Position numbers and translations under genes: made by a program | The notes under the pieces: generated by a model | Seen by the model: only the letters and a program-made list of their open reading frames with translations | Databases searched by the model: none | Told to the model about the DNA's origin: nothing | Origin: Dehalogenimonas sp. W | GTDB taxonomy: Bacteria; Chloroflexota; Dehalococcoidia; Dehalococcoidales; Dehalococcoidaceae | Assembly: GCF_037094495.1 (NCBI RefSeq) | Contig: NZ_CP146612.1 | Location: 1,550,001 to 1,614,000 of the forward strand | DNA length: 64,000 bases | Direction of reading: 5' to 3' | Shown here: positions 7,195 to 40,632 of the stretch, in pieces | Numbering within the stretch: position 1 is the stretch's first letter | Layout: the number at the start of each line of letters is the position of its first letter

Positions 7195-7776
7195 ATGAAT
7201 TGCCCCCGTTTACTGGTACACTGTTGCTGTGTGCACTGTTCCGCCTATACTCTTCAGTATTGGCGCGAACAAGGTTATGACGTTACGGCCTACTGGTATA
7301 ACCCAAATATTCACCCTAATAAGGAGCATCAGCAGCGGTTGGAATCGCTGGGTGCCTATCTTAAAGGCAAGTCTATTGAGTTGATCTGGGAGAACGACTA
7401 CAACCCGGCAGATTATTACGCCGCAATCGGGAATAGAGGCGAAAACCGATGCATTGGTTGCTATTCTATCCGACTCGTTAAAACTAGGGAATATGCAGAA
7501 GGGGCTGGTTATGATGGTTTTACCAGCAGTCTGTTAATCAGCCTGCAACAAGATCATCAGTCCGTCATAGATCAGGCGTTAAGGGCGACAGGTGAAACCG
7601 GATCCAGATTCAAGTATGCTGACATACGGAAAAGCTACAGTGAAAGCCGACGAATGACCAAACAGCGACCGTGGCTATATCGTCAAACCTATTGTGGTTG
7701 TTCATTCAGTGAGGCTGAGGCAGCTGCAAAGCTCAGGTACAAAGAATTTTTACAGCGAGACGAACGGCAACCATGA
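7195..7776 (+). CDS. queH: Epoxyqueuosine reductase QueH
   Basis: Last step of queuosine synthesis in tRNA: reduction of epoxyqueuosine to queuosine. It is the non-cobalamin, DUF208-type enzyme, not the cobalamin-using QueG, notable in a genome that otherwise depends on cobalamin. The 193-residue protein shows the family cysteine pattern: HCCCVHCS at residues 9-16, GENRCIGCYSIR in the middle and YRQTYCGCSFS near the C-terminus; these cysteines bind an iron-sulfur cluster and a redox disulfide in characterised QueH. The ATG at 7195 lies just after a -10 box. The rimI-like gene follows in the same direction 28 bases on. Confidence 0.92.
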   Translation: MNCPRLLVHCCCVHCSAYTLQYWREQGYDVTAYWYNPNIHPNKEHQQRLESLGAYLKGKSIELIWENDYNPADYYAAIGNRGENRCIGCYSIRLVKTREYAEGAGYDGFTSSLLISLQQDHQSVIDQALRATGETGSRFKYADIRKSYSESRRMTKQRPWLYRQTYCGCSFSEAEAAAKLRYKEFLQRDERQP

Positions 7777-8650: not shown

Positions 8651-8872
8651 CTATCTGCCGCCTTTGGCTCGGCGGCGGATTTCCATCTCCTGTTCAAAAC
8701 GGCTAAACTCTTCTTCGCTCATCAACTCGCAGCTTTCCAAACTGTTTTGCTCTAGATGGATCTTCATGGCTGCCCGGCATTTCCAGCAACGGTAAGGGCC
8801 GATGTACTGTGCATCGCTGATGGAAAAACCGCCACTGGTTTCGCATTTGGGACAGGTAATATTGACTAGCAT
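8651..8872 (-). CDS. Small zinc-ribbon protein
   Basis: A 73-residue protein with two CxxC knuckles (CPKC near residue 7 and CWKC about 24 residues later), which looks like a zinc ribbon, followed by a charged helix rich in Glu and Arg that ends RRRAKGGR. The start is ATG 8872, preceded at good spacing by AAGGAG on the minus strand; the frame stays open farther upstream but without such a site. I do not recognise a specific family. It may be a nucleic-acid or ribosome-associated protein, but that is a guess. Confidence 0.75.
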   Translation of the reverse strand: MLVNITCPKCETSGGFSISDAQYIGPYRCWKCRAAMKIHLEQNSLESCELMSEEEFSRFEQEMEIRRRAKGGR

Positions 8873-8943: not shown

Positions 8944-9606
8944 TTATGATGCAGGTTTTCTAAGCAGGAGACAAATATTGCGGGAAAAATATTTGAAAAG
9001 TCCTTTGTGATTAGCCTCCGGGCTGATGGAAATTATTTCAAAACCGGCACGGCGGGCCAGCTTTTTTATCTCCCCGTAGGTAAATAGATGGTAGAAACGG
9101 TTGACACTTCTGCCACCTGTACGCCAGGGAATGAAGGTGTCACGGCGCGTGAACCAGAATTTTGGCTGCCCGGCATTCCAGACCGTCAAAAACAGTTCGC
9201 CTTCCGGTCTTAAGACCCGTTTAATTTCCTGCAAGGCAAGTAACTGTTCCGATCGGGTTTTTATGTGATGGAGGCTGGCTACAGCAATCACCTGGTCAAA
9301 ATGGCTATCTGGAAATGGCAGTGACCGCATGTCGGCAAGGTCTAACTTGACGTCAAATTGGTGTTTGGCGGCATATTTGGCGGCATATTTCAGCATTTCT
9401 GACGACAGGTCAATGCCAGACAATTCAAAGCGGCCTCGGAATGGAAGGAAGTCTGCACCATGACCGCAACCGGCGTTCAGCAATTTACCTTCAATCCAGC
9501 GGTCAGCTAGGGCGGTCAGCTCACTACCAAAAATGGTGTAGTGACGGAAGTTATACCAGCCAGGGGCGATAGCATCAAATTCGGCCTTTTTATGGTCAAG
9601 CATCAA
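8944..9606 (-). CDS. SAM-dependent methyltransferase, Trm9/ALKBH8-like
   Basis: Class I methyltransferase of 220 residues. It begins with the Trm9-like FDAIAPGWYNFRHYTI segment, has motif I LLNAGCGHGADFL, an acidic strand end GIDLSSEML, then MRSLPFPDSHFDQVIAVASL with HHI and ALQEIKRVLRPEGELFLTVW. The late FYHLFTYGEIKKLARRAGFE matches the Trm9 pattern F-Y-H-x-F. Trm9 and ALKBH8 methylate the carboxyl of 5-carboxymethyluridine at tRNA position 34. It is divergently arranged with elp3, which makes that same cm5U base, so a role in wobble-uridine methylation is a strong inference. The start is ATG 9606 or the adjacent ATG 9603. Confidence 0.8.
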   Translation of the reverse strand: MMLDHKKAEFDAIAPGWYNFRHYTIFGSELTALADRWIEGKLLNAGCGHGADFLPFRGRFELSGIDLSSEMLKYAAKYAAKHQFDVKLDLADMRSLPFPDSHFDQVIAVASLHHIKTRSEQLLALQEIKRVLRPEGELFLTVWNAGQPKFWFTRRDTFIPWRTGGRSVNRFYHLFTYGEIKKLARRAGFEIISISPEANHKGLFKYFSRNICLLLRKPAS

Positions 9607-9632
9607 TAGAATTCATTACACTCCGTAAGTCC

Positions 9633-9640
9633 TGTATAAT
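9633..9640 (+). promoter_or_regulatory. -10 element of elp3
   Basis: TGTATAAT with the TATAAT at 9635-9640, 13 bases before the elp3 ATG. The predicted leader is about 7 bases. No convincing -35 was found. The same 47-base gap must also hold the start of the divergent methyltransferase gene. Confidence 0.6.
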
Positions 9641-9653
9641 TGAACAGTATATA

Positions 9654-11027
9654 ATGAAGAAGAGCACACGAACAATATCAGGCGTGACGCCTATCGCCGT
9701 AATGTCGCCGCCGGCCGGGTGTCCCGGCAAATGTATCTATTGCCCGGATTTTAACAATACTCCCCGGAGCTACACTCCGCATTCTCCTGCGGTGATGCGG
9801 GCGGCCTCCAGAGATTATGACGCCGCAGAACAAGTCGATCTTCGTCTGAAAATCCTTCAGGACATGGGACACCCAACTGATAAAGTGGAACTCATCATTA
9901 TGGGCGGTACTTTTCTGGCCACGTCGATTTCCTTTCAATACAGGTTTATCAAGGACTGTTTTGACGCGCTGAATGGGCGGGTGTCAGAGTCTTTGTCGGA
10001 AGCGCAAGGTCTCAATGAGACGGCACAGCACCGAGCGGTAGGTTTGTGTCTGGAAACCCGACCTGATGTGTGCGGGGATGCGGAAATTGAACGCATGGTT
10101 GCCTGGGGCACGACCCGGGTGGAATTGGGCGTGCAGATGCTGGACGATAAAATCTATGAAATTGTCGGCCGCGGGCATGATATTGCCGCTGTCGCCGACG
10201 CCAGCAGAAGGCTTCGCAACGCCGGACTGAAAGTGCATTACCATTGGATGCCTGGATTGCCGGGTTCTACTCCGGAACATGACCTGGAACTGACGCAGGA
10301 AATTTTTAAAAATCCTGATTATCGGCCGGATGGGTTAAAGCTCTACCCAACGATGGTGGTAGAAGGGACCATATTAGAAGAGTGGCATCAAAACGGGCGT
10401 TACCAGCCGTATTCTGATGAAACTATGACCGGATTAATCGCCGATATGAAAAAGACTATTCCCGGTTATGTGCGTATTTCCCGGGTTTTAAGGGATATTC
10501 CGGCAGAATATGTTTCCGGCGGTTTGAAGAATTCCCTGCGGGATGGCGTCAGAACGAGATTAGAAGAGGAAGGCCTATTTTGCCGTTGTATCAGATGCCG
10601 GGAATACGGACATCGCCTGAAGAGAAAACTAAAAATCGGGACTCCCGGGCTGAAACGGACTGACTACCAGGCATCAGCCGGTCATGAAATATTCCTATCG
10701 TTTGAAGATGAATACGATACTTTGTTCGGATTGCTGCGGTTGAGAATTCAAGCTGAAATACCCAAACAACTGGCAGACCAGTATGAAAACGTTGCCCTGA
10801 TTCGGGAGTTGCATGTATACGGCTCCGAGCTTGCCATAGGTGACCGCAACGATGAAAGCGTACAACACCGGGGTTATGGCCGGCGTCTGCTAAGCGAAGC
10901 AGAGCAAATCGCCCGTGAAGAGTACGGAGCGCAGTATGCGGCCATATTGTCCGGAGTGGGGGCCAGATCATATTATCGTGAACAAGGCTACACACTGCAT
11001 TCATCATATATGGTAAAAACGCTTTGA
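9654..11027 (+). CDS. elp3: tRNA uridine(34) carboxymethyl-modification enzyme Elp3
   Basis: Radical SAM/acetyltransferase fusion that uses SAM chemistry and acetyl-CoA to make 5-carboxymethyluridine at the tRNA wobble base; in eukaryotes it is the catalytic Elongator subunit, but here it would act alone. The 457 residues match bacterial and archaeal Elp3. Radical SAM cysteines are C23, C27 and C30 (CPGKCIYC). A C-rich zinc motif CRCIRCREYGH lies between the domains. The C-terminal GNAT domain has QHRGYGRRLLSEAEQIA and ends with YYREQGYTL. Its start follows a -10 box closely. The divergent Trm9-like gene suggests further methylation of the product. Confidence 0.95.
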   Translation: MKKSTRTISGVTPIAVMSPPAGCPGKCIYCPDFNNTPRSYTPHSPAVMRAASRDYDAAEQVDLRLKILQDMGHPTDKVELIIMGGTFLATSISFQYRFIKDCFDALNGRVSESLSEAQGLNETAQHRAVGLCLETRPDVCGDAEIERMVAWGTTRVELGVQMLDDKIYEIVGRGHDIAAVADASRRLRNAGLKVHYHWMPGLPGSTPEHDLELTQEIFKNPDYRPDGLKLYPTMVVEGTILEEWHQNGRYQPYSDETMTGLIADMKKTIPGYVRISRVLRDIPAEYVSGGLKNSLRDGVRTRLEEEGLFCRCIRCREYGHRLKRKLKIGTPGLKRTDYQASAGHEIFLSFEDEYDTLFGLLRLRIQAEIPKQLADQYENVALIRELHVYGSELAIGDRNDESVQHRGYGRRLLSEAEQIAREEYGAQYAAILSGVGARSYYREQGYTLHSSYMVKTL

Positions 11028-11214: not shown

Positions 11215-11805
11215 GTGCCTGATTCAAATCCGGTGCCTGAGTATGAGCTACTTCCGGGTCATGTCAGTGAATTTTCCTCTAATATCAAGGCAATGCATGG
11301 TATTGATGCCAATATGTGCTATCAATGCGGTAAATGTACAAGCGGTTGTCCCTTGAACGAATATATGGATATGACTCCGACACAGGTGATTCACGCGGTG
11401 CGTCTGGGATTGAAAGAATTAGTATTGAATAGCAATACCTATTGGCTATGTGTCGCCTGCGGAACCTGTACCAGCCGTTGCCCTCAGGATACCGGTTTGT
11501 TACAAGTGATGGATGCGTTGGCCAATATTGCCATGAAAGAGGGGATTAAGCCTAAGGAACCGGCGGTGGCGGCGTTTTACCGCACCGGACTAAGTCTGGT
11601 TAAAAGATTCGGGATGATGTATGAAGCCGGAGTTGCAGGACTGTTAACTCTGAAAACCGGGACATTGGCGCGGGATGCCGGCCTTGGGATCCGTATGCTG
11701 AAAAAAGGTAAGCTGGATGTATTGCCACACTCGCAGAACGCGGGGGAAATGAAAAGGATATTTGAGCGGGTAGCCCAAAAGGAAAAGGAGCTGGCTGGTT
11801 CATGA
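11215..11805 (+). CDS. hdrC: Heterodisulfide reductase-type subunit C
   Basis: Electron-transfer subunit with two [4Fe-4S] clusters that passes electrons between HdrA and HdrB. The 196-residue protein has CYQCGKCTSGCP and CVACGTCTSRCP, both full ferredoxin-type motifs. The start is GTG 11215, seven bases after GAGGTG. It has no membrane span, so a cytoplasmic complex is expected. It is the first gene of an eight-gene operon and overlaps hdrB by four bases (ATGA), showing translational coupling. The organism type has no known coenzyme M or B, so the name reflects homology, not substrate. Confidence 0.93.
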   Translation: MPDSNPVPEYELLPGHVSEFSSNIKAMHGIDANMCYQCGKCTSGCPLNEYMDMTPTQVIHAVRLGLKELVLNSNTYWLCVACGTCTSRCPQDTGLLQVMDALANIAMKEGIKPKEPAVAAFYRTGLSLVKRFGMMYEAGVAGLLTLKTGTLARDAGLGIRMLKKGKLDVLPHSQNAGEMKRIFERVAQKEKELAGS

Positions 11806-12668
11806 AATACGCGTATTACAACAGCTGCTCCTTACGTTCAACAGGCAAAGAATATGACAACTCATTGCAACATGTCTTTAAGGCGCTGGATATTGAACTT
11901 GAAGAACCGAAAAATTGGGTCTGTTGCGGTTCAACTCTGGCCCATAACGCTTCGGTATTGTTAGCCGATACATTGCCTCTGAAAAATCTGGCCGAGGTTG
12001 AAAAAATGGGGCTTGATGAGGTCATGGTTCCGTGTACAGCGTGTTATAACCGATTCAAGATAGCCCAATATGAACATGAAGACGATCGCAGAATTAGACA
12101 TGAGATTGAAGATATCATTGGACATACATTTCAAAAAGACATCTCTGTGTTACATCCATTGGAAATATTAGCCCTTGATCAGAATCTGGAAAAATTAAAA
12201 ACACTGGTAAAGCGGGATTTATCCCATTTAAAAGTTGTTAGTTATTACGGTTGTCTTCTGGTTCGGCCTCACAAGGAAACACAATTCAGAGATAATCCCG
12301 AATATCCGGTCACCATGGACCGAATCCTCAGCGCGATAGGTATTAAGACGTTGGATTGGTCTCACAAAGTGGAATGTTGCGGCGGTTCACTGTCAATTAC
12401 CAGGCCGGATGTCGTGCTTGACCTGACCTCCCGGATTTTGGACGATGCTAAAGCGGTTGGTGCAACTGCGGTGGCGGTGCCCTGTACGTTTTGTCAGTTA
12501 AACCTTGATATACGGCAGGAAGATCTGGCAAAAAGAGGTAAGACGTACGATATGCCGATATATTATTTTACAGAATTGATTGCGCTGGCTTTGGGTATTC
12601 CTGAGAGGGAATTGATGCTGGGTAAACATTTTGTGGAATCTGAAAAAGTACTGGCGAGGGCGACTTAA
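11802..12668 (+). CDS. hdrB: Heterodisulfide reductase-type subunit B
   Basis: Catalytic-type subunit with two cysteine-rich CCG domains, 288 residues. In characterised HdrB these bind two non-cubane [4Fe-4S] clusters that cleave the disulfide substrate. Visible cysteine blocks are CCGSTLAHN and PCTACYNRF in the first half, and YGCLLVRP, ECCGGSLSITRPD and PCTFCQLNLD in the second, so both CCG modules appear complete. The start ATG overlaps the hdrC stop. hdrA follows one base after the stop. The substrate in a non-methanogen is unknown. Confidence 0.93.
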   Translation: MKYAYYNSCSLRSTGKEYDNSLQHVFKALDIELEEPKNWVCCGSTLAHNASVLLADTLPLKNLAEVEKMGLDEVMVPCTACYNRFKIAQYEHEDDRRIRHEIEDIIGHTFQKDISVLHPLEILALDQNLEKLKTLVKRDLSHLKVVSYYGCLLVRPHKETQFRDNPEYPVTMDRILSAIGIKTLDWSHKVECCGGSLSITRPDVVLDLTSRILDDAKAVGATAVAVPCTFCQLNLDIRQEDLAKRGKTYDMPIYYFTELIALALGIPERELMLGKHFVESEKVLARAT

Positions 12669-12669
12669 T

Positions 12670-15600
12670 ATGGTGGATAAGACCAAAGTTGGCGCTGCCT
12701 TGGTGATCGGCGGTGGGGTAGGCGGCATGCAGACTGCATTGGATCTGGCTGAAGCGGGCATCAAGGTATATCTGCTGGATGAAGCTCCGGCAATCGGCGG
12801 CAAAATGGTTCAACTGGATAAAACCTTTCCGACTAATGACTGTGCCATGTGTACCGTGTCACCGCGCCTGGTTAATATTGACCGGCATCTTAATATAGAA
12901 TTACTGACCAATTCAAAAGTAGTTAGTTATGACGGGGAGCCCGGTAACTTCAGGGTGAAGGTACATAAAAAAGCCCGATGTGTGGATGAATCCAAATGCA
13001 CCGGGTGTAATGTGTGTATTGAAAAGTGCCCGGCAAAAACCAGCAGCGAATTTGATCATGGACTGGCAAACCGCAAGGCGATATATACCCTGTATTCCCA
13101 GGCGGTGCCGAATGTGCCGGTTATTGATAAAGCCCACTGTATTTATTTTATAAAAGGCAAAGGTTGCCGAGCGTGTGAAAAGTTTTGTGAAGCCAACGCT
13201 ATTCTTTTAGATCAAGACGATGAGGAATTAGAGCTGAATGTAGGGGCCATTGTGATAGCCCCGGGGTACGATCTGTTTGCCGCCGAAGAAAAGCCACAGC
13301 TAGGTTACGGCCGATATCCGGATGTATTGACCAGTTTGCAATTTGAACGTATGCTTTCGGCATCGGGTCCTTCGGCCGGCAAGGTGATGAGACCTTCCAA
13401 CGGCGAGTTACCCAAGAAAGTGGCCTTCATCCAGTGTGTCGGGTCTCGGGAAACGGGTGCCGATTTTTGTTCTGCGGTTTGTTGCATGTACGCGACCAAA
13501 GAAGCCCTGATATTGAAAGAGCATTATCCGGATACAGAAGTAACCATTTTCTATATTGACATTCGGGCTTATGGCAAAGGTTTTGAATCCTATTATGAGC
13601 GCGCAAAAAAAGCCGGCGTGAGATATGTTAGATGTCAGCCATCATCAATTAAGCAGGTTCCTTCCAATGATGAACTGATAATTCGTTATCAGGATGAACA
13701 AGGCAAGATCAGAGACGAAAGATTTGAAATGGTGATGCTTTCCTGTGGGTTAAGGCCCGCAGCGGCCGGACAGGAATTGGCGGCTAAACTGGGCATTAAA
13801 ACTACCGGTGATGGGTTTTGTGTGACTGAAGGTTTGGACCCTGTAGCCACCAGCGTGGCAGGTGTTTATGCCGTCGGGGCTTTTACAGCACCGAAGGATA
13901 TTCCAGAAACAGTCATCCAGGCCGGGGCTGCAGCATCCAGAGTTTTGGCTTTATTAGCTGATAAAAAGGGCGAACTGATACAAGAACGGGTAAATCCGGC
14001 GGAACGGCCCATTAGTGATGGAAATCCAAAAATCGGGATATTCGTGTGTCATTGCGGAAAAAACATATCTTCAGTAGTCAGTATTCCTGAGGTAGTTGAA
14101 GATGCGAAAACTATTCCCAATGTGACATTTGTTGATGATACTCTTTTTGCCTGTGCCTCCGATGCGGGTGAAAAAATTAAACAGGCGATTATTGAAAATG
14201 ATTTGAGCCGGGTCATAATTGCTGCTTGTACTCCCAGGACCCATGAAGGGCTGTTTCAGGATACGATGCGTGAAGCCGGGTTGAATCCGCACCTGCTGGA
14301 AATTGCCAATATCCGGAATCAATGTTCCTGGGTTCACATGAATCAGCCTGAAGCGGCTACTGCCAAGGCCAAGGACATCATCCGATTAGCCGCAGTTAAG
14401 GTTACTCATTTGAAGCCGCTTTATCCCGGTCATATGGCGGTGAGTAATGAAGGCCTGGTTGTTGGCGGCGGTCTGGCCGGTATGTCTGCTGCAATTGATT
14501 TAGCTGATGCCGGATATCAAACCTACCTGTTGGAAAAAAGCGGGGACCTGGGCGGTAATCTTAAACGAGTGAAAATTGGGGAACCCGGCCGGGAGCCACA
14601 GATTAAATTGAAGGAACTTATCGAGCGGGTCAAGATTCATCCGAGGGTGAAGTTGTTTTTAAATTCTGAAGTAACTTCGTTTGAAGGCTCTGCGGGCAAT
14701 TTTGTCATTGATTTTAAACATGATGGTGACAACCACGAAATAAAGGCTGGTGCCGTTATTGTAGCAACCGGAGCGTCGGAATATCGCCCTGGGGAATACC
14801 TGTACGGACAGGACTCAAGGGTAATAACCCAGCTTGAATTAGAGGAACGATTGAGCACGGACAGGATTGATGCTCGTACCGTGGTAATGATTCAATGTGT
14901 TGGTTCCAGAGACGAGGCTCACCCTTACTGCAGCCGGTTGTGTTGTATTCAGGCTGTTAAAAATGCCATTAAATTGAAAGCCCGCAGGCCGGAAACTGAA
15001 GTGTTCATTTTATATCGGGATATCCGCACCTACAGCCTGCATGAATCAGAGTACAGCCGAGCGCGCAAACTGGGCGTCAGATTTATCCGCTTTGAAGAAA
15101 ATTCCAAACCTGACGTTATAGTTGATGGTAGCCGGCTGAAAATTTCAGTAATTGATTCGGTGCTGAACGCCAGACTAAATATCCCGGCAGAACTGGTGGT
15201 ATTATCGGCCGGAATTGTACCCGATGCGGATCAAAGTTTGGCAAAGTTGATGAAATTGCCTCATTCCGAAGACGGCTTTTTGATGGAAGCCCATATTAAA
15301 CTGAGGCCGGTGGACTCGCCGGTTGAAGGGGTATTTTTAGCTGGTTTAGCCCATGGCCCGAAATTGGCTGAAGAATCCATCGCGCAGGCTGGGGCTGCGG
15401 CGGCCAAGGCTGCTGCTATATTATCCAAGGATAATATCCAGCTTGAGGCTTGTGTTTCCGAGGTGCTTGATGAAAATTGTGACGGATGCGCCTATTGCGT
15501 TGATCCTTGCCCCTATGATGCCATCACCCTCATAGAATATAATTCAAACGGCAGCTTGAAAAAGACAGTTGAGGCTGATCCGGCCAAGTGTCATGGTTGC

Positions 15601-15702
15601 GGTGTGTGCATGGCGACCTGCCCTAAAAAGGGGATTATGGTGAAAAACTACTATCTGGACGAATTGTCCGAAATGGTTGCCTCAATTCTGACTCCGGCTT
15701 AA
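12670..15702 (+). CDS. hdrA: HdrA-type electron-bifurcating flavoprotein, tandem-duplicated form
   Basis: Predicted FAD- and iron-sulfur-containing bifurcating subunit, 1010 residues, far longer than single HdrA (about 650). The first half has the FAD site VIGGGVGGMQ near residue 12, a ferredoxin motif CTGCNVCIEKCP and the HdrA signature IQCVGSRETGADFCSAVCC. The second half repeats it: FVCHCGKNIS, a second FAD site VVGGGLAGMS and IQCVGSRDEAHPYCSRLCC. The C-terminus has two [4Fe-4S] motifs, CDGCAYCVDPCP and CHGCGVCMATCP. The start ATG 12670 follows a GAGGGCG; an earlier frame start at 12631 lies inside hdrB. Electron bifurcation is inferred from the MvhADG-HdrABC family. Confidence 0.92.
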   Translation: MVDKTKVGAALVIGGGVGGMQTALDLAEAGIKVYLLDEAPAIGGKMVQLDKTFPTNDCAMCTVSPRLVNIDRHLNIELLTNSKVVSYDGEPGNFRVKVHKKARCVDESKCTGCNVCIEKCPAKTSSEFDHGLANRKAIYTLYSQAVPNVPVIDKAHCIYFIKGKGCRACEKFCEANAILLDQDDEELELNVGAIVIAPGYDLFAAEEKPQLGYGRYPDVLTSLQFERMLSASGPSAGKVMRPSNGELPKKVAFIQCVGSRETGADFCSAVCCMYATKEALILKEHYPDTEVTIFYIDIRAYGKGFESYYERAKKAGVRYVRCQPSSIKQVPSNDELIIRYQDEQGKIRDERFEMVMLSCGLRPAAAGQELAAKLGIKTTGDGFCVTEGLDPVATSVAGVYAVGAFTAPKDIPETVIQAGAAASRVLALLADKKGELIQERVNPAERPISDGNPKIGIFVCHCGKNISSVVSIPEVVEDAKTIPNVTFVDDTLFACASDAGEKIKQAIIENDLSRVIIAACTPRTHEGLFQDTMREAGLNPHLLEIANIRNQCSWVHMNQPEAATAKAKDIIRLAAVKVTHLKPLYPGHMAVSNEGLVVGGGLAGMSAAIDLADAGYQTYLLEKSGDLGGNLKRVKIGEPGREPQIKLKELIERVKIHPRVKLFLNSEVTSFEGSAGNFVIDFKHDGDNHEIKAGAVIVATGASEYRPGEYLYGQDSRVITQLELEERLSTDRIDARTVVMIQCVGSRDEAHPYCSRLCCIQAVKNAIKLKARRPETEVFILYRDIRTYSLHESEYSRARKLGVRFIRFEENSKPDVIVDGSRLKISVIDSVLNARLNIPAELVVLSAGIVPDADQSLAKLMKLPHSEDGFLMEAHIKLRPVDSPVEGVFLAGLAHGPKLAEESIAQAGAAAAKAAAILSKDNIQLEACVSEVLDENCDGCAYCVDPCPYDAITLIEYNSNGSLKKTVEADPAKCHGCGVCMATCPKKGIMVKNYYLDELSEMVASILTPA

Positions 15703-15717
15703 AAAGGTGGAATGATT

Positions 15718-16170
15718 GTGAGTACGATGATTACAACGGAAAAATCTGAAACCGAGCAGGACAGTGGTTACCAACCTTTAATCATTTGTTTTGCCTGCAA
15801 TTGGTGTTCTTATGCGGCGGCTGATTTAGCCGGTGTATCCCGCATTCAATATCCCCATAATGTGCGTATTATCAGAGTGATGTGTTCCGGTATGGTCCAT
15901 CCCAACCTGGTGATTGATGCGTTGACCAAAGGCGCGGATGGGGTGCTTATGTGCGGTTGTCATCCTGGAGATTGTCACTACCGGGAGGGCAACTTAAAGG
16001 CCGAGTCACGGGCTGAGGCTATTCAGCTGATGCTGCAGGATTTTGGCCTGGAAGAAGAGCGCTACCGGCTGGAATGGGTGTCGGCGTCAGAGGGGGCTCG
16101 CTTCGCACAGATTGTGACAGATATGGTGGCCGAGCTAAAGAGCCTGGGTCCCAGTCCGTATAGGATGTAA
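15718..16170 (+). CDS. mvhD: F420-non-reducing hydrogenase iron-sulfur subunit MvhD
   Basis: Small [2Fe-2S] protein that carries electrons from the Mvh hydrogenase to HdrA, about 150 residues. The cysteines are in ICFACNWCSYAAADLAG, VMCSGMVHP and VLMCGCHPGDCHYREGN, as in the MvhD family. I chose GTG 15718 because AGGTGG at 15705-15710 lies seven bases upstream of it; ATG 15712 is only one base from that site. It is directly downstream of hdrA, where it would dock. The protein is cytoplasmic, with no signal or membrane segment. Confidence 0.92.
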   Translation: MSTMITTEKSETEQDSGYQPLIICFACNWCSYAAADLAGVSRIQYPHNVRIIRVMCSGMVHPNLVIDALTKGADGVLMCGCHPGDCHYREGNLKAESRAEAIQLMLQDFGLEEERYRLEWVSASEGARFAQIVTDMVAELKSLGPSPYRM

Positions 16171-16172
16171 GG

Positions 16173-16361
16173 ATGATGCAAATGGAGTTAGCACGCTTTT
16201 TTGATGGACGGAAATTCATGTGGGATGGGGAAACCTATGATTCTGAAACGGAGTATCGTCCCCATCTGGAAAAATATTCGGCTGAAGGATTTGAAGTAAA
16301 AGAGCTCAATGAGAATGAGAAGTACTACTTGTTTACCCGGCGTGTGGTGGCTGGTAGTTAG
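16173..16361 (+). CDS. Small protein of unknown function inside the hydrogenase operon
   Basis: A 62-residue protein between mvhD and mvhG. In-frame ATGs at 16173, 16176 and 16182 are all possible starts; TAAGGA at 16168-16173 best fits 16182. The sequence is acidic and aromatic (ARFFDGRKFMWDGETYDSE, KYSAEGFEVKELNENEKYYL), with no cysteine, so it is not an iron-sulfur carrier. I do not recognise the family. Its place between two hydrogenase genes, with tight spacing, suggests a subunit, chaperone or assembly role for the MvhAGD-HdrABC complex; that is inference. Confidence 0.75.
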   Translation: MMQMELARFFDGRKFMWDGETYDSETEYRPHLEKYSAEGFEVKELNENEKYYLFTRRVVAGS

Positions 16362-16439
16362 AGATAACCGCTCCGCCGGTTGACTGGTTACCGGTATTAT
16401 CTTCAGGTAAGGTTGAAAAAACATAAGGAGGACCCAATC

Positions 16440-17360
16440 ATGGTACGTGTAGCCGAGGAATGGTTCGCGGTATGTGGAGGCTGCGAAGTGTCTATTCTGG
16501 ACATTGGCGAGCCGCTGTTGGACCTGTTGCCCAGTCTGGAGTTTGTTCACATTCCGGTTTTGATGGACCACAAGCTTTTTGGACAGACTGGTGAAAAATC
16601 CCAGATGGAAATCCCGGATGCCGACGTCGGTATCATTACCGGAAGCATCCGCACCCAGGAAAATAAAGAACTGGCCGAAGAAATGCGCCGGAAGTGCAAG
16701 GTAATTATTTCGTTAGGGTCCTGCGCCAATTTCGGGGGTATCCCGGCGTTAGGCAATATGTATTCCAATGATGACATTTATGAGACTAACTACCGTTCAG
16801 GTGTCAGTACCCAGTCCGGTGAAAACCCGTCGGAAGGCCTGCCGGCATTGACCGACAGGGTATATTCGGTCAATGAGGTTATCAAAGTTGATGTTTCTAT
16901 CCCTGGTTGTCCGCCGACTCCAGAATGGATTGCCGGTGCGCTGGTGGCGCTTTTAGAGGGGAAGACCTTTAGTCTGCCGGAGCGCAGTGTTTGTGATGAT
17001 TGTCCTACTGTCCGGGAAAAGAAAGCTCAGGTGGATATCCGACGACCGCTACAGGCTCCAGAATTCACGCCGGGACGATATGACAATATGCGTTGCTTGA
17101 ACGAACAGGGCATTCTTTGTTTGGGACCGGCGACCCGCACCGGGTGCGGCGGATCAGAGAAGACACCGCGGTGTATCAAAGCCTATACCGCTTGCCGGGG
17201 TTGCTACGGTCCCATTCGGGCCGGAGCTAATCCGATGGTGGATATGATGGGAGCCCTTTCATCTGTCGGGCTTGACCCCAAGCAGATTGAAGACCGGATG
17301 GCTACTTTTAACCGCTTTATCGGCGCCGGGCGTCTACGCCCGATGCCGGCCCGTAAATAA
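16440..17360 (+). CDS. mvhG: F420-non-reducing [NiFe] hydrogenase small subunit
   Basis: Iron-sulfur subunit of a group 3c-like [NiFe] hydrogenase, 306 residues. It has the proximal cluster cysteines in CGGCEVSILD, SLGSCANFGG and PGCPPTPEWI, and C-terminal cluster cysteines in CLGPATRTGCGGSEKTP and CIKAYTACRGCYGP. There is no twin-arginine signal, so the enzyme is cytoplasmic, unlike Hup-type uptake hydrogenases. ATG 16440 is chosen because AAGGAGG lies nine bases upstream; the frame is open from 16380 without such a site. It is followed by mvhA at 19 bases. Confidence 0.93.
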   Translation: MVRVAEEWFAVCGGCEVSILDIGEPLLDLLPSLEFVHIPVLMDHKLFGQTGEKSQMEIPDADVGIITGSIRTQENKELAEEMRRKCKVIISLGSCANFGGIPALGNMYSNDDIYETNYRSGVSTQSGENPSEGLPALTDRVYSVNEVIKVDVSIPGCPPTPEWIAGALVALLEGKTFSLPERSVCDDCPTVREKKAQVDIRRPLQAPEFTPGRYDNMRCLNEQGILCLGPATRTGCGGSEKTPRCIKAYTACRGCYGPIRAGANPMVDMMGALSSVGLDPKQIEDRMATFNRFIGAGRLRPMPARK

Positions 17361-40435: not shown

Positions 40436-40559
40436 AATAATTGTATTATAACGCTAACAAAGACTGGTGTCCATGATATTTTAGTTTTTGTAAAAAGCCT
40501 GACTTTTAGACGAGACTTATTTACTGAGTGTATAGGCGATAATTATAAAACTGATTAAG

Positions 40560-40632
40560 CGTCCCAGGAGGGATTCGAACCCGCGACCCGCTGCTTAGAA
40601 GGCAGCCGCTCTATCCACTGAGCTACTGGGAC
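40560..40632 (-). tRNA. tRNA-Arg (anticodon UCU)
   Basis: The minus strand folds into a full cloverleaf: acceptor stem GTCCCAG/CTGGGAC (7 perfect pairs), D arm GCTC...GAGC, anticodon stem GCTGC/GCAGC with loop CTTCTAA (anticodon TCT) and T loop TTCGAAT. The T stem (GCGGG/CCCTC) has one C-U mismatch. The discriminator is G and CCA is not encoded. It reads AGA codons and is a substrate type for wobble-uridine modification, as made by Elp3. Confidence 0.95.

Follow-up and report, generated by a model that had tools for sequence, protein, structure and literature searches.

In yeast, Trm9 acts as a complex with Trm112 and forms mcm5U34 on the Arg(UCU), Gly(UCC), Lys, Gln and Glu tRNAs, and its residues R29, H115, R241, Y243 and N271 have been shown to matter (PMC5372719). 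In archaea, M. infernus Elp3 forms cm5U34 (PMC13315578, PMC5372719), and a 2008 paper put forward a system in which Elp3 and Trm9 work without the remaining Elongator subunits, pointing to a gene cluster in S. solfataricus and making a prediction for Haloferax (PMC2584109). The same paper lists mcm5U as typical of eukaryotic tRNAs (PMC2584109), and according to a 2017 review bacterial genes similar to the Trm112-partner methylases were not detectable (PMC5372719). Bacterial Elp3 was described in a 2020 review as confined to Dehalococcoides, with its product not known; the D. mccartyi enzyme (DmcElp3) is weakly active in vitro, and xcm5U34 was not measured in that species (PMC7663514). A preliminary description of the locus reported here regarded a two-gene bacterial Elp3/Trm9 system, without Trm112 and Elongator partners, as new. 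A two-gene system had already been proposed for archaea (PMC2584109), but no bacterial Trm9 or bacterial Elp3/Trm9 pair appeared in the papers that we searched, which were mainly open ones, and an earlier report is possible.

We analysed a 64,000 bp stretch of the Dehalogenimonas sp. W genome (contig NZ_CP146612.1, positions 1,550,001 to 1,614,000), referred to here as the window. It contains an elp3 gene and, back to back with it, a gene for a Trm9-like methyltransferase (MT). The features that concern us are:

8944 to 9603, minus strand: Trm9-like class I SAM methyltransferase (MT), 219 aa from the ATG at 9603; predicted cm5U34 carboxyl methyltransferase
9654 to 11027, plus strand: elp3, 457 aa; radical SAM and acetyltransferase tRNA U34 enzyme
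9604 to 9653, no strand: divergent intergenic region between the MT and elp3 start codons, 50 bp from the ATG; presumed shared promoter region
8651 to 8872, minus strand: zinc-ribbon protein, 73 aa, directly downstream of MT on the same strand; speculatively, a possible accessory partner
40559 to 40632, minus strand: tRNA-Arg(UCU), the sole tRNA in the window; plausible substrate

The spacer of 47 bases given in the preliminary description corresponds to an alternative TTG start of MT at 9606 (ORF 8944-9606), and measures 50 bp if the ATG is used. Both ORFs lie where that description had placed them, and the blocks that it quoted from MT (HHI, LRPEGELFLTVW and FYHLFTYGE) are present and correspond to conserved blocks of the MT family. 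The tRNA-Arg(UCU) that it named as a target is likewise present, and is a plausible one by analogy with the yeast tRNAs that carry mcm5U34 (PMC5372719). A second wobble-base modification gene in the MT neighbourhood, queH (epoxyqueuosine reductase, PF02677; acting on G34), is located at 7195-7776, approximately 1.2 kb from the MT gene. The region after elp3 (11215-17360) holds HdrC/HdrB/HdrA-like heterodisulfide-reductase-like genes, an MvhD-like gene and a hydrogenase small-subunit-like gene, all named from the appearance of their sequences alone.

The identity of the window's Elp3 is unambiguous. Against TIGR01211 (cut-off 350) the protein reaches 557 bits, its best PDB chain is DmcElp3 (5l7j), and it conserves the radical SAM cysteines (CX3CX2C at 23/27/30) and the KAT/acetyl-CoA residues E385, H387 and R410 (E386, H388 and R411 in DmcElp3). 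The Elp3 of one genome in our dataset (G009) matches DmcElp3 with 100% identity, and MT sits divergently there, approximately 70 bp from elp3. D. mccartyi, whose Elp3 provided the model bacterial structure, has the elp3/MT pair.

A profile of 19 MT orthologues returned yeast Trm9 (5cm2_Z) first among 177,635 PDB sequences (E 5e-21). The same chain was second when the window MT was searched as a single sequence, with an alignment extending across the C-terminal RFYHLF block. Using a profile of archaeal Trm9 only, the window MT was the top methyltransferase of its genome (130 vs 63 bits) and the elp3-linked MT ranked first in 9 of 9 elp3/MT-bearing genomes searched (113 to 143 bits), the next-best score in any of the 25 genomes searched being 75 bits; these archaeal sequences are themselves predicted Trm9 and were gathered with a profile of four rows, one of them the window MT. 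A search of plasmids with MT returned distant methyltransferases only.

The five yeast residues (R29, H115, R241, Y243 and N271) align with R20, H112, R169, Y171 and N209 of MT, where R29 and N271, both outside the YlTrm9 segment used, were mapped through archaeal Trm9 and what we take to be the yeast numbering. R20, H112, R169 and N209 are found in 35/35 orthologues and Y171 in 34/35, and the five residues are likewise shared by all, or almost all, of the 31 archaeal sequences compared. As a set they are missing from UbiE, UbiG, BioC, CmoM and 15 other methyltransferases of the order, and W142 of MT is present in 35/35 orthologues vs 0/19 outgroup sequences. Judged by these alignments, MT has a Trm9-type active site. 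It also shares with yeast Trm9 and the ALKBH8 methyltransferase domain the class I fold, an RYYHLY-type lid block, and VW and PW motifs, and here it is tied to Elp3 by gene pairing. In contrast to them it is bacterial, 219 aa long, approximately 27% identical over the aligned core, and without a Trm112 (PF03966) in its genome.

We consider it likely that Elp3 and MT catalyse the two steps of a pathway that modifies the wobble uridine, in a bacterium without MnmG. Elp3 would use acetyl-CoA and radical SAM chemistry to form cm5U34 on tRNAs with U34, such as Arg(UCU), and MT would then esterify the cm5U34 carboxylate in a SAM-dependent reaction to give mcm5U34, in this genome probably without Trm112. 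While the identity of Elp3, the Trm9-type active site, the conserved pairing and the absence of MnmG are observed, we infer the substrate, the order of the steps, the product and the independence from Trm112. The role predicted for MT resembles that of CmoM, the E. coli tRNA cmo5U34 carboxyl methyltransferase, which esterifies a carboxylate on the U34 side chain. We rejected CmoM as the identity of MT: unlike MT it lacks the Trm9 residues, and it falls with the outgroup in trees (one E. coli sequence on a long branch).

Elp3 is not limited to Dehalococcoides, contrary to the 2020 review (PMC7663514), since elp3 loci occur in other Chloroflexota families and in Patescibacteria. The earlier reading of the locus as a two-gene pair is supported, but the pair is not restricted to the Dehalogenimonas clade. 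Elp3 is longer in the other Chloroflexota families (approximately 530 to 780 aa), and a divergent MT of a second type is located nearby at most loci examined. This type keeps the equivalents of R29, H115 and R241 and has lost those of Y243 and N271, and its U34 product is possibly different. It is marked by the motifs RYVH and GLYQVW and was seen at loci L080, L082-L084, L087, L089-L091 and L096-L099. We also examined 31 elp3 loci, mostly from Patescibacteria, with one unplaced bacterium represented as well. In 20 of them a divergent Trm9-like MT lies upstream, immediately adjacent to elp3 in 18 cases. The patescibacterial loci with the pair are L182, L185, L187, L189-L195, L199, L201, L202, L204, L206, L208, L213 and L214. 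Our literature search for Elp3 in Patescibacteria returned nothing relevant.

The second MT type, which lacks the Y243 and N271 equivalents, raises the possibility that products differ by group, and with it an alternative in which MT acts after Elp3 at U34 but gives another product, for instance by acting on a further cm5U/cm5s2U derivative, or as one link in a longer route through mcm5U. T. acidophilum has ncm5U34 (PMC6313347), and in yeast trm9 mutants ncm5U is reported to build up, which suggests a further step (PMC3110198). We regard this alternative as unlikely for the window's genome, whose type I MT keeps all five Trm9 residues, which favours the Trm9 reaction.

The association of MT with elp3 was counted across genomes that include relatives, so the counts below are not independent and overstate the number of independent events. 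In the order, an MT orthologue was identified in 32 of 41 genomes, and 32/32 have a divergent elp3 on the same contig, within approximately 340 bp in 30 genomes and at 1.5 and 3.1 kb in the other two. Five of the 41 have neither gene, elp3 is truncated at a contig end in G017, G025 and G034, and the sole clear elp3 without an adjoining MT is in G013, where no Trm9-like match was detected. For the class, the phylum sample contained both genes in 22/33 genomes and neither in 11/33, with a divergent arrangement in 22/22 (Fisher 5e-9, uncorrected for relatedness). Scanning genome contigs yielded 80 MT loci, 73 of them with a divergent elp3, and for two unlinked bacterial MT loci whose genomes were checked, elp3 is located elsewhere in the genome. 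Around 76 of these loci, no neighbour other than elp3 (75/76) is almost always retained, the next family being rimI-like (25/76). The divergent arrangement is far beyond chance. Co-occurrence across Chloroflexota, to which the preliminary description had looked for confirmation, is near-perfect, and MT was never seen without elp3 in the genomes tested. The archaeal system is similar in its stand-alone Elp3, its Trm9-type methylase and its proposed mcm5U route (PMC2584109), whereas elp3 was found within 1.5 kb at 0/30 of the archaeal Trm9-like loci sampled.

These patterns are difficult to reconcile with MT being a tRNA, rRNA or protein methyltransferase that is unrelated to the Elp3 product and linked to elp3 only by a shared promoter or co-regulation. 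Besides the lack of any MT without elp3 among the genomes tested, the same pairing turns up with diverged MTs in distantly related bacterial groups, and the Trm9-specific residues are retained. We judge this explanation improbable, even though the class I fold on which a Trm9 assignment might lean is generic. The AF2 model of MT (pLDDT 90.7) has a class I SAM methyltransferase fold with 5cm2 at Foldseek rank 1, and it superposes on Trm9 with a Z of 21.6 (rmsd 1.8 over 173), a Z-score that METTL6, glycine sarcosine MT and others equal. Because other methyltransferases tie, the modelled fold alone proves little about MT identity, and we dropped the structural Z-score as a discriminator of the family.

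Phylogenetic analysis separated the Trm9-like sequences from the outgroup, with 96 SH-aLRT in a quick tree and 82/85 in a more careful one. With the latter, moderate support, MT grouped with archaeal Trm9, apart from UbiE, UbiG, BioC, CmoM and the order's other methyltransferases. In the careful tree a topology placing YlTrm9 among the outgroup was not rejected (p-AU 0.34), and the branching order within the Trm9-like set was weakly supported, leaving the exact place of Trm9 unfixed by the tree. An MT from Aenigmatarchaeota (L103:3884-4534) shares 43% identity with the window MT and has no elp3 nearby. In the quick tree it is sister to the Dehalococcoidia MT type with a support of 100, a placement that hints at exchange of MT between archaea and bacteria.

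The Pfam matches of MT (generic Methyltransf_11/25 and weak UbiE-family) could point to a menaquinone-type or other small-molecule methylase, an identity that we consider very improbable, as no NCBIfam model matched above its cut-off (38.1 bits vs 158.35 for UbiE/MenG, TIGR01934; UbiG and BioC also far under theirs) and UbiE, UbiG and BioC lie apart from MT in the trees and lack its Trm9 fingerprint. The grouping with such methylases that the preliminary description had set against its own proposal was not observed; Trm9 was the top profile match and the five residues are kept.

The preliminary description had also proposed that the pair works without Trm112. This is true for the window's genome (G000), where Trm112 (PF03966) gave no match; short stand-alone Trm112-like ORFs were identified in approximately 12 of the 32 MT-bearing relatives. 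Because Trm112, which eukaryotic Trm9 requires, is missing, we did not classify MT as a Trm9-Trm112 holoenzyme, and we predict that it works on its own or with a different partner. The missing Trm112 marks a difference from the eukaryotic enzyme, not from the Trm9 methyltransferase fold. The zinc-ribbon protein downstream of MT (CPKC...CWKC) is conserved in the genus and some relatives and is not a PF03966 Trm112. Its gene is clustered at 17/76 MT loci, on the MT strand in 17/17 members. With only 17 of 76 loci it is not a general, conserved Trm112 substitute, and to assign it an accessory role instead of Trm112 would be speculation.

The MnmE/MnmG (and MnmC/MnmM) pathway likewise performs bacterial xm5U34 modification, but its chemistry is unrelated and MnmG is missing from all elp3-bearing Chloroflexota genomes sampled. 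In the order, no MnmG scored above the cut-off (41 genomes). Of 251 Chloroflexota genomes, 47 carry elp3, 102 carry mnmG and none carries both (19.1 expected; hypergeometric 6e-13, uncorrected for phylogeny). In the phylum of a Peribacteria genome (Patescibacteria; 240 genomes), elp3 was found in 89 and mnmG in 6, with 0 shared; taken alone, this exclusion is weak because mnmG occurs in so few genomes. Whether a complete, divergent Elp3/Trm9 pair replaces MnmEG throughout Chloroflexota and Patescibacteria, yielding mcm5U with a Trm112-independent Trm9, is a broader proposal, for which we see the sequence evidence as evenly poised.

A conserved elp3/Trm9-like pair that never occurs with mnmG provides a partner for bacterial Elp3 and predicts its missing product. 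It also suggests that the wobble uridine is dealt with in bacteria by one or the other of two routes. For studies of mechanism, the family may offer Trm9 enzymes that act without Trm112, among them that of D. mccartyi, whose Elp3 structure is solved.
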